From NCBI GenBank assembly GCA_022449545.1, contig JAKUPN010000003.1, forward strand, positions 1 through 64,000: 64,000 nucleotides of DNA, written 5' to 3'. The stretch comes from Alphaproteobacteria bacterium (GTDB lineage Bacteria; Pseudomonadota; Alphaproteobacteria; UBA6615). The notes below the pieces were generated by a model. The model saw nothing but the letters and a program-made list of their open reading frames with translations, searched no databases and was not told where the DNA came from. Both the position numbers and the translations under genes were made by a program. Below are positions 25,500 to 29,947 of this stretch, in pieces (position 1 is the stretch's first letter; each line of letters starts with the position of its first letter).

Positions 25500-27587
25500 A
25501 TGAAAAATCAAACTGCTTCTAAAAATCTACCGCATCTAGAACGGAAGTTTATTGAGGACCACCCAGCTGGAGACGATCCGGCTATTTTCGACTTAGTATC
25601 TGATTATTTTCCTGCTGGAGACCAACCTCAAGCAATACAAGGTTTGGTTAGTGGCTTAGAGCAAGGAGAACGTGATCAAGTGCTTTTGGGAGTAACAGGC
25701 TCTGGTAAAACTTTTACTATGGCACATACTATAGCAAAAACTCAGAGACCAGCTTTAATTTTAGCGCCAAATAAAACATTAGCAGCACAATTGTATAATG
25801 AAATGAAGCGGTTTTTCCCTACTAACGCTATAGAATACTTTGTTTCTTACTACGACTATTATCAGCCTGAAGCTTATGTGCCAAGGTCAGATACTTATAT
25901 CGAGAAAGAAGCATCAATCAACGAGCAAATTGATCGATTGAGACATGCAGCAACAAGATCACTTTTTGAGAGACGTGATGTTATCATAGTAGCTTCAGTC
26001 TCATGCATTTACGGCATAGGGGATGCTGAATCCTATTTAAAAATGACAAAATCATATGCTGTTGGAGATAAAATTGACAGGAGTATCGTACTGCGCGATT
26101 TGATAGAACTGCAGTACAAAAGGAATGATACAGATTTTTACCGAGGCACTCTTCGCTCAAGAGGCGATACAATAGAGATATTTCCTGCGCATCTAGAAGA
26201 TAGGGCGTGGCGTCTATCTTTATTTGGTGATGAAGTTGAAGCGATCTCTGAATTTGATCCGCTCACTGGAGAGAAAATCGAAAGTTTAGACGAGATAAAA
26301 GTATTTGCAAATTCTCATTATATTACCCCTAAACCAACATTGAATCAGGCAGCAAAAACCATCAAACAAGAATTGATATCTCGTCTTAGAGAATTAAATC
26401 ACAAAAATAAATTGGTGGAAGCACAAAGACTAGAACAACGTACTAATTTTGATTTAGAAATGATTAAAGTAACAGGATTTTGTGCTGGCATTGAAAATTA
26501 TTCTCGACATTTGACTGGTCGCAAACCAGGTGAACCTCCTCCGACTTTATTTGAGTATTTACCTAATGATGCAATTTTATTTGTGGATGAGTCCCATATA
26601 ACAGTTCCACAGATTGGAGGAATGTTTAGAGGTGACCTTTCTAGAAAGACGACTTTATCTGAGTTTGGATTTCGTCTTCCTTCGTGTATAGATAATCGCC
26701 CACTTAAATTTGAAGAATGGTTTGAAATGCGCCCCGACACAATCTATCTTTCCGCAACTCCTAGTGACTGGGAATTAGAACAAAGTGGTGGAGTGTTTAC
26801 CGAACAAATCGTCAGACCAACTGGCTTGATTGATCCTGTTTGCATTATTAAACCTGCAGAAACACAGGTGGATGATCTAATAGATGAATGTCGTGCAGTA
26901 TCTGCAAAAGGAATGCGCGTCCTAGTGACAACGTTAACTAAGAGAATGTCGGAAGACTTGACAGAATATATGCATGAACAAGGAATCCGAGTGCGCTACA
27001 TGCACTCTGATATCGAAACATTGGAACGAATTGAAATACTAAGGGATCTAAGGCTAGGAGTTTTTGATGTTTTAGTTGGTATTAACTTACTTCGAGAGGG
27101 ACTGGATATTCCTGAATGTGCACTTGTTGCTATTCTCGACGCAGACAAGGAAGGATTCTTAAGGTCGAAAACTTCCTTGATTCAAACAATAGGCCGAGCA
27201 GCAAGAAATATTGATGGTCGTGTAATTCTCTATGCTGACAAAATTACCGGCAGTCTAAAATATGCAATGGATGAAACCAATCGACGGCGTGAAAAACAAA
27301 AAGAGTATAACAGTCTAAAAAATATCACCCCAGAATCCATCCGTAGTAACATGGCCGATATTTTGAATAGTGTTTTTGAGCGTGATCGAGTTACTATAAG
27401 CACAGGAGAATCTAAAACTCTACATCTCGTGGGAGATAATCTAAAGACTCATATATTTAATCTTGATAATCGAATGCGAGAAGCTGCAGCTGATCTTGAG
27501 TTTGAAGAAGCAGCTCGAATTAGAGACGAAATTCGTAGGCTTGAAGATCAAGAACTTCAGCTAATGGATGAAATGAATTCTAAGTAA
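25500..27587 (+). CDS. uvrB: excinuclease ABC subunit B
   Basis: A 695-residue helicase-like damage verifier of nucleotide excision repair. It has the Walker A motif GVTGSGKT, the beta-hairpin [12 protein letters not shown] that probes the damaged strand, the DEAD-like DESH box, motif [11 protein letters not shown] and a C-terminal UVR domain ([15 protein letters not shown]) that recruits UvrC, whose gene lies at 37.9 kb. About 30 residues precede the usual start of the family core, a common extension in alphaproteobacteria. Its stop codon overlaps the start of the next gene by one base, so the two are cotranscribed. Confidence 0.97.
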
Positions 27588-28417
27588 TGAATGATATGTC
27601 AAACATACGTTTCGCGCCCAACTTCTACCATCTCTTTCTCGAGCTATCGATACGTGAGAGATTCGCTGCTGCTGCCAAAATTGGTATAGACGCTGTTGAA
27701 TGGCATTTCCCATATGAGATATCTAAGCAAGAACTAAAATGTTTACTTGATGAATATGGCATTGAATTTACCTACTGTGTCGTTCCCCCAGAAAAAAAAG
27801 ATGGATCGTTCGTTACTATCAGAGGATTAGGAGCACAACCAGGAAAGCAAGAAGAATTTAAAAGATCCGCTGATTTAGCTTTAGAATATATTCATCATTG
27901 TGACTTTTACTCTATTAACGTTGGTGCTGGTCCTATTCCTCAAGGTGAAGAAAAACAGAAGTGTTTGGACGTTTATATTGAAAATATAGACTACATATCT
28001 ACTAATGCCGGTAATCATCGCTGTAAATTCTTACTAGAACCTGTATGTGCACATAGAATAGAGAACTGGCCAATGCAAAAGATGGCTGAAGCAAGGGAAA
28101 TAGTTAACTCGTTGGGAAAAACGAATGTCGGATTGGTTTATGATACTTTTCACATGCGTTATGAAGAAACCGGGACTTTAACGGATATCATGGATGAGTT
28201 TTGGCCATTAATTGGCTATTTCCAAATAGGTAATCCACCTGATCGAAATGAACCAGGCGTTGGGGAACTGGACCTAATTTGGTTGGTTAGAAGAGCCATA
28301 CAGAAAGGATACAAAGGGGCTATTGGGATGGAACTTGATCCTTCCTTGGACACTTGGTCAAGTCTATTATGGATGAATGAATTTGGTTATAAAGTAGATC
28401 AGGATAGCCACCTTTAG
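27587..28417 (+). CDS. hydroxypyruvate isomerase-family TIM-barrel protein
   Basis: A 276-residue xylose-isomerase-like TIM-barrel protein of the Hyi/OtnI group, which interconverts hydroxypyruvate and tartronate semialdehyde or related 2-oxo-sugar acids. Metal-binding Glu, Asp and His residues sit in FLLEPVCAHRIENWP, VGLVYDTFHM, IGYFQIGNPPDRNEPG and GAIGMELDP. The start ATG shares its A with the uvrB stop TAA, which implies translational coupling; a second in-frame ATG at 27596 is possible. The functional link to uvrB is not obvious. It converges with the peroxiredoxin operon. Confidence 0.88.
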   Translation: MNDMSNIRFAPNFYHLFLELSIRERFAAAAKIGIDAVEWHFPYEISKQELKCLLDEYGIEFTYCVVPPEKKDGSFVTIRGLGAQPGKQEEFKRSADLALEYIHHCDFYSINVGAGPIPQGEEKQKCLDVYIENIDYISTNAGNHRCKFLLEPVCAHRIENWPMQKMAEAREIVNSLGKTNVGLVYDTFHMRYEETGTLTDIMDEFWPLIGYFQIGNPPDRNEPGVGELDLIWLVRRAIQKGYKGAIGMELDPSLDTWSSLLWMNEFGYKVDQDSHL

Positions 28418-28465: not shown

Positions 28466-28996
28466 TCATAATTTAGACTTTTCCAGATAATCCAGAATGC
28501 TTTGGGGGGAGCTGACTTCATATGGATCATCAGCGGCATTATCTGAAAACCCAGGCTCAACAAATAACTTTTGTACTACGCAGTTATCAACTATAGCCGC
28601 GTATCTCCATGATCTCATGCCAAAACCTAGATTATCTTTCTTAACTAACATTCCCATTTTTCTTGTGAATTCACCAGACCCATCAGGAATAGCGGAAATA
28701 TTTTTTATTTTTAAACTTTCGAACCACGAATTCATCACAAATGAATCATTTACAGAAACACAATAGATCCTATTAATTCCAAAAGATTGAAAATTTGAAT
28801 ACTGTTGTTCAAAGCTAGGCAACTGAAGAGTCGAGCATATCGGCGTAAATGCACCTGGCAAGGAAAACAAAATTGCTTTCGTGTTAGAAAAATAATGTTC
28901 CGTGTCTAAATCTTTCCAGACAGCTTCTGAAGTTGTATTTAGATCTTCTTTAACACGAGTTTTAAATATGACCTGAGGTAATTTACTTTTAATCAT
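28466..28996 (-). CDS. peroxiredoxin, Prx5/hybrid type
   Basis: A 176-residue thiol peroxidase that reduces H2O2 and organic peroxides. The peroxidatic Cys is C54 in LPGAFTPICSTLQLP, followed by CVSVNDSFVMNSWFE and the Arg-bearing FGMRSWRYAAIVDN, all diagnostic of the Prx5 subfamily. The frame extends upstream to 29131, but those residues overlap the preceding gene and are unlike the family. The ATG at 28996, 13 bases after that gene's stop, is the likely start. It is the second gene of an operon controlled by the iron box at 29617-29647. No resolving Cys or glutaredoxin domain is obvious, so an external thiol reductant is expected. Confidence 0.9.
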   Translation of the reverse strand: MIKSKLPQVIFKTRVKEDLNTTSEAVWKDLDTEHYFSNTKAILFSLPGAFTPICSTLQLPSFEQQYSNFQSFGINRIYCVSVNDSFVMNSWFESLKIKNISAIPDGSGEFTRKMGMLVKKDNLGFGMRSWRYAAIVDNCVVQKLFVEPGFSDNAADDPYEVSSPQSILDYLEKSKL

Positions 28997-29009
28997 TTTA
29001 TTTCTATCA

Positions 29010-29585
29010 CTAGTTAATAGTTTTGTGAAACTGCGAAACCCGATCACTGCCACTAGATTTTCGAGCAACGAGATCAAAATAATGAGATCGAATAGGAAAA
29101 ATAATTCCTTTATTCGCAAATGCTCGTGCAATTTTTCCTAATAATCGACTCGAAGCCTCAGCCGGAACGTCAGACATATAATTATATAGAATTTGTTTCA
29201 CTATCACTTCGTGATCTTCTTGATGAAAAGTAATACAGCCTAATGTAATTAATTCCAATAATCCGTATTTCTTGCAGCCGTGACAGCCGATACTTAGACC
29301 ACTTGTTGAAAAACTCACTATAAGATCTAAGCAGAATGCGAAAGCAACATCGATATCACTGTGTTCTTCACAAACGATGCCCAAGTCATAAAAAGCCTGC
29401 GATATAAGTGGTTGTGGATCAATTTTATGATAGGTACTTCTAGCCCAATGTTGTACAGACCAAGACCAAAATATCTCTGGAGCTGTTTGATCACCTATAA
29501 CTAAATGAAAATCATCGTATTCGTCGAATGTCAAACAATTATGATCAAAAGTATTCCCTGTCGTAGTTTGCATGCCTGCATCCAT
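29010..29585 (-). CDS. uncharacterised CxxC-containing protein, iron-box-controlled
   Basis: A 191-residue protein I do not recognise. It has no signal peptide or clear membrane span. It is rich in aromatic, His and acidic residues. The middle carries SIGCHGCKKYGLLEL with a C-x-x-C pair, followed by LGCITFHQEDHEV, giving several Cys and His residues close together that could bind a metal. The C-terminal half looks helical (LLGKIARAFANKGIIFPI). The ATG at 29585 has no good ribosome site; an in-frame ATG at 29573 is an alternative. A near-consensus Fur site lies about 32 bases upstream, and the peroxiredoxin gene follows after 13 bases. A role in iron limitation or iron-linked peroxide stress is inferred from context only. 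Confidence 0.75.
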   Translation of the reverse strand: MDAGMQTTTGNTFDHNCLTFDEYDDFHLVIGDQTAPEIFWSWSVQHWARSTYHKIDPQPLISQAFYDLGIVCEEHSDIDVAFAFCLDLIVSFSTSGLSIGCHGCKKYGLLELITLGCITFHQEDHEVIVKQILYNYMSDVPAEASSRLLGKIARAFANKGIIFPIRSHYFDLVARKSSGSDRVSQFHKTIN

Positions 29586-29947
29586 TTTTTTAATAATAAT
29601 TTATTCTTTACTTATTGATAATGCGAATCATTATCATTATCATTATCAAGTAAAAAGTTAATAATGTCTTAATTTATCGAATCAAGTGATTAAAATAAGT
29701 CGAAATCAGCTTCTATATTGGGTTTATACAATAATCTGCTATGAGTTGATGTTAATTGGCTATAGCATGTGCTAATTGACGCAACCTACTGGAAATTAGG
29801 CATCTTTACGGCTAGAATCAAAGAACTTCGTTTTTTGAAAGCGAATTGGGAGATTCGTTATCATACGATTTGCCTTTAAAAATTTGTAATATCTGCCGGG
29901 GTAGATTATTTGCTCTCGGTCGGAAATGGTTGGGAGAAGTTTTATAC
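29586..29947. other. divergent region between the iron-box operon and gltB
   Basis: About 360 bases. The left part holds the Fur-like site. The rest, up to the gltB start, is AT-rich leader without a recognised riboswitch or gene. A reading frame continuous with gltB begins at TTG 29846, but it encodes a segment unlike any GOGAT N-terminus. Confidence 0.5.
29617..29647 (-). promoter_or_regulatory. Fur-type iron box
   Basis: Bases 29617-29635 match the 19-base Fur consensus at 17 of 19 positions, differing only in the two central bases. ATTATC hexamers continue to 29647 in register (steps of six), so two or more overlapping Fur dimers could bind. It ends about 32 bases upstream of the 191-residue gene on the minus strand and some 300 bases from gltB, so the minus-strand operon is the likely target. 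In alphaproteobacteria the binder could be Fur or Mur; Irr and RirA recognise different sequences. Confidence 0.8.

Follow-up and report, generated by a model that had tools for sequence, protein, structure and literature searches.

A class-wide alphaproteobacterial protein family marked by Fur-like boxes, linked to iron storage and uptake genes, and in some lineages followed by a Prx5-type peroxiredoxin

The hemP-irpA-bfd-bfr operon of Rhodobacter sphaeroides is induced by iron starvation (PMC3413700, PMC4618611), and the available text of these two reports names no gene of the kind described here between hemP and irpA. In Caulobacter, H2O2 rises under iron limitation (PMC6120978). Bfd, which known systems induce when iron is scarce, has about 65 residues and a [2Fe-2S] motif of the form C-x-C...C-x-x-C. 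A further point of reference is HI0572 (PDB 1NM3), a hybrid of a Prx5 peroxiredoxin and a glutaredoxin. Here we describe a locus that shares features with each of these systems. It lies in a 64,000-nt stretch of an alphaproteobacterial genome (GCA_022449545.1, contig JAKUPN010000003.1, positions 1 to 64,000), which we call the window.

Read along the minus strand, the locus consists of a box array, a gene for a 191-aa protein, a short gap and a peroxiredoxin gene (Table 1). A sequence-only reading of the window had described a Fur-like site matching 17 of 19 consensus positions, with further hexamers, upstream of a two-gene operon in which a 191-residue protein precedes a Prx5-type peroxiredoxin. 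Our consensus scan, the open reading frames, the 13-nt gap and a Pfam Redoxin match (1.6e-20) bear out this layout; the 19-mer has two mismatches to the 19-bp Fur consensus. The peroxiredoxin carries the peroxidatic P-x3-T-x2-C motif, and its PGAFTPIC sequence is kept among homologues except at one position. Translation likely begins at the ATG at 28996, giving 176 aa, rather than at the TTG of a 221-aa frame. Prx5 structures are among its PDB matches, and the best solved relative is HI0572, whose Prx5 domain it matches at 7e-46. Unlike HI0572, the window enzyme lacks a glutaredoxin domain, and its gene follows that of an unrelated protein in a Fur-box operon.

Table 1. Features of the window locus (positions in the window)
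Feature	Position	Strand	Description	Basis
Fur-box array	29617..29647	.	19-mer GATAATGCGAATCATTATC (29617-29635) and overlapping in-register ATTATC hexamers to 29647	consensus scan; kept 5' of the homologous operon in L008, L009 and L010
191-aa protein gene	29010..29585	-	unannotated alphaproteobacterial family; CHGC at residues 101-104; all-helical by prediction	ORF, profiles, model
Intergenic gap	28997..29009	-	13 nt	equivalent gaps of 16, 11 and 0 nt in L008, L009 and L010
Prx5-type peroxiredoxin gene	28466..28996	-	176 aa; peroxidatic Cys54 in PGAFTPIC; Cys79 25 residues on	ORF, Pfam, PDB matches

Three relatives share the box, the gene order and the spacing. A MarineAlpha12_Bin1 contig (L008, 83% identity) keeps the box, both genes and the flanks; in SAT177 (L009, 50% identity) and in a different taxonomic family (L010, 33% identity) the box and both genes are again present, with different flanking genes. 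Weak matches that were short and held internal stops (L011, L013) were left out. In both genes, the codon differences between the window and L008 (23/14/47 and 11/6/29) fall mainly at third positions, and this excess indicates that both are coding. The gap sizes are consistent with a single transcript. The congeners of the window's lineage are marine metagenome-assembled genomes, and the lineage itself appears to be marine.

The 191-residue protein could not be assigned in the sequence-only reading, and we found no confident match to a known unrelated family in Pfam, NCBIfam, the PDB or Foldseek searches. The window protein has no Pfam or NCBIfam match above curated cut-offs, 36 family members returned just stray single matches to these libraries (E 0.009 or weaker), and a PDB profile search with the family gave a best E of 0.12, which is not significant. 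By 'unannotated' we mean only without an entry in Pfam, NCBIfam and the PDB. None of the papers found names a family member. Fur-regulated hypothetical genes have been described in Caulobacter (PMC3751524). AlphaFold, given the 120-row alignment, produced a confident all-helical model (pLDDT 86, pTM 0.79) with no significant Foldseek match in the PDB (best E 0.26, TM 0.21) or among viral structures. A single-sequence prediction for L058, made with no alignment, reached a pLDDT of 41, too low to be informative.

A five-sequence profile recovered the family from 42 of 385 alphaproteobacterial genomes, and a 36-sequence profile from 106 of them, which span 78 of 276 genera. Of the 41 positive genomes in a draw across the phylum, 40 belonged to Alphaproteobacteria; the family is nearly absent outside this class. 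Members are 160-190 aa long, the window's genome holds one copy, and the deep branches of the family tree are weakly supported. We rejected an origin from a plasmid or phage: phage and plasmid collections contained no match to the window protein, viral contigs yielded none, and the distant members found on plasmid records are all from Azospirillum. One gene in genome G355 (L055:7336-8475) encodes a 379-aa protein with two fused family domains, and tandem or divergent paralogue pairs, which may suggest heterodimers, occur at seven loci (L145, L146, L148, L049, L052, L054, L176). In the reduced genome G072, a family gene that looks decayed, with internal stops (L202:5003-5305), adjoins a TonB receptor, AhpC and an AhpF-like ORF, and the family gene of a related genome (L192) is intact.

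Conservation within the family does not center on the cysteines. Across 120 aligned members, E111 is invariant (100%), followed by R45 (97%), D110 (87%), Q122 (83%), W47 (81%) and a C-terminal His (81% of filled rows). The window protein has Gln in place of R45 and Leu in place of D110, and its group has Asn in place of the terminal His. Cys104 is present in 68% of members and both CHGC cysteines in 36 of 120, a distribution that does not sustain the earlier proposal of a CxxC functional core; we rejected a CxxC redox or metal centre as the feature that defines the family. All four members of the window group do retain two cysteines in this segment. No conserved set of metal ligands is evident in the alignment.

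We scored Fur-like sites 5' of the conserved domain as 7-1-7 palindromes around AATNATT, using a score built for this analysis and a threshold of 13 or more. Such palindromes precede 89 of 130 members versus 61 of 1028 neighbouring genes (6%; Fisher 8e-60, a value that overstates independence because members are related), and 4.2% of dinucleotide shuffles reach the threshold. Since box presence played no part in collecting members, this enrichment also supports the view that the distant ones are true homologues. In Azospirillum, three members listed as 'hypothetical protein' each have TGCGAATGACTTGCA some 55 nt before the start. Sites were found in 46 of the 52 taxonomic families of members and in none of the loci of the other six. 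The latter include f23, for whose loci we therefore rejected Fur control; f23 may correspond to Rhodobacteraceae, a group that relies on other iron regulators. On this evidence, iron control is predicted to be a property of the family.

The genes around family members point in the same direction. Of 80 genomes, 12 have a bfr gene no more than 2 kb from a member, where about 0.1 would be expected if placement were random and each genome held an estimated 1.3 members; at a distance of up to 8 kb the number is 17. The family gene, bfd and bfr are co-directional in L078; the bfd-bfr pair is divergent from the family gene in L179 and L189 and convergent with it in L182. Like Bfd, the family is apparently cytosolic and encoded by a small Fur-box gene found repeatedly near bfr. 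However, members are much longer and helical and lack the Bfd cysteine motif, and Bfd occurs separately alongside them, so we rejected the idea that they are Bfd. The likeness to the R. sphaeroides operon is seen in f23, where hemP lies directly 5' of the family gene in five genomes and imelysin (irpA) directly 3' in four of these; in L217, bfd and bfr come after imelysin. The window operon differs from that of R. sphaeroides in its Prx5 partner and its Fur-box control site. Elsewhere, f67 loci have divergent hemP and TonB receptor genes, one f104 locus has hemP at 0.6 kb, and f50 loci have a TonB receptor and an FTR1-like permease, with AhpC in two of three. Direct neighbours (n=126) include five TonB receptors, three ferritins, two imelysins and two HugZ-like domains; distal control genes include two TonB plugs, and ferritin and imelysin are absent among the families listed for them. 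These counts are approximate, because gene calls in GC-rich loci were mechanical. Many members stand alone, without an iron-related neighbour. Taken together, box and neighbour counts show a family that is marked by predicted Fur boxes and has physical linkage to genes of iron storage and uptake, and they strengthen the link to iron limitation drawn in the sequence-only reading.

Another gene found close to that of the family, in the window (27587-28417), L044, L045 (5794-6600) and L208 (3378-4235), encodes a TIM-barrel protein of the hydroxypyruvate-isomerase / xylose-isomerase-like type. The L045 copy matches Pfam AP_endonuc_2 and the other three were judged by eye; the association may be a true link or a coincidence.

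Fur-consensus sites are rare in the window's genome. Those with two or fewer mismatches occur at only three places in the whole 2.25 Mb, and a backwards control pattern allowed up to three mismatches matched 0 and 1 times in the whole-genome scan. One site separates divergent bfd (L227 5038-5265) and bfr (L227 5506-5985), a pair located on a different contig from the family gene. Another precedes an operon of imelysin-like, sterol-desaturase-like and FbpA/FbpB-like ORFs, named by eye from sequence, which is likely an FbpAB-type iron uptake operon. This second Fur-box operon (L228:694-6046) contains imelysin-like and sterol-desaturase-like membrane protein genes that are also paired near a family gene in L218 (2035-4479). 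The genome encodes two FUR-domain proteins above cut-off, and this pair together with the three-site pattern is what a real Fur regulon would be expected to look like. It also encodes further AhpC/TSA proteins; a search for PF00199 catalase, which does not cover KatG, found none.

A Prx5 gene lies directly 3' of the family gene in the window, L044, L045 and L046, where the two nearly overlap, and in L058, L060 and L080. This adjacency amounts to three changes on the family tree, and may have had one origin. Most homologues have no adjacent peroxiredoxin, and we rejected a universal partnership; the pairing with redoxins that had been proposed for the window is partly supported, being limited to three places on the tree. 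Of the two kinds of neighbour that the sequence-only reading asked about, iron boxes accompany most homologues and redoxins a minority. One L058 ORF (8671-9636) seems to join a second, diverged family copy to the Prx5 frame. It may reflect a gene fusion or a frameshift artefact, or the ORF may simply extend through the region ahead of the real peroxiredoxin start.

The sequence-only interpretation as a whole is partly supported. Our preferred reading, which we hold with about as much doubt as belief, is that the window carries a Fur-controlled, class-wide iron-starvation operon, in which the family protein acts with Bfr and Bfd on an iron or haem reserve and Prx5 removes peroxide. When iron is plentiful, Fe-Fur would occupy the box array and block transcription; as iron falls, both genes would be expressed. 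The family protein, predicted to be cytosolic and all-helical, would then act on the intracellular iron or haem reserve, for example as a partner of Bfr and Bfd that helps release or pass on stored iron. The co-transcribed Prx5 would clear peroxide, with no need for iron, while ferrous iron is mobilised. The recurrence of bfr, bfd, hemP, imelysin and TonB receptors makes action on an iron or haem reserve most likely; repression by Fur itself, the Bfr/Bfd partnership and the role of the peroxiredoxin are what we infer. More tentatively, and with disbelief outweighing belief, the family could be a dedicated third partner of bacterioferritin and Bfd in mobilising this reserve, derepressed through Fur and, in certain lineages, protected by a Prx5 from the same transcript. 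The solitary members, the restriction of the peroxiredoxin to three places on the tree, the separate contig of bfr and bfd in the window's genome, the six taxonomic families without a site, the variable CxxC, the Asn that replaces the C-terminal His in the window group and the absence of an evident conserved metal-ligand set all count against the model.

Alternatively, the protein could bind or traffic haem that is taken up, or freed from Bfr, during iron starvation. The hemP genes of f23, f67 and f104, the adjacent TonB receptors and HugZ-like domains, and the fact that Bfr is itself a haem protein all fit such a role, as does the Cys-Pro dipeptide, a haem-regulatory motif, that is seen in many members (alignment A5). 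However, the window group has GCHGC in place of this dipeptide, the cysteines vary, haem-uptake genes are missing at most loci and the model has no fold match to any haem protein, and we judge this function unlikely. We also think it rather improbable that the protein is a generic Fur-induced iron-sparing or regulatory adaptor, acting on a protein or RNA target without contact with iron stores, and that its neighbours just share its regulon. Many members stand as single genes, each behind a box of its own, and an interaction surface could be formed by the conserved R, W, DE, Q and C-terminal His, but physical linkage to bfr and bfd recurs far above chance. Least probable by far is a thiol-redox partner of Prx5, whether reductant or adaptor, with CHGC as its active site: gene adjacency and the paired cysteines of the window group would suit it, but most homologues have no neighbouring Prx, both cysteines occur in only 36 of 120 members, Prx-linked L060 and L080 have no second cysteine (RCPHNPG, RCPDYRG) and the helical model is not thioredoxin-like.

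Much work has been done on the iron-starvation regulons of Alphaproteobacteria, yet this family, which about one in four of the sampled genomes in the class carry, has no Pfam, NCBIfam or PDB entry. In the sea, where the window's lineage appears to live, iron is often limiting. Culturable carriers such as Azospirillum, among them Azospirillum lipoferum with AZOLI_RS22260, make the family directly testable. If it does mobilise bacterioferritin iron or haem, it would add a component to a pathway known until now from Bfr and Bfd.
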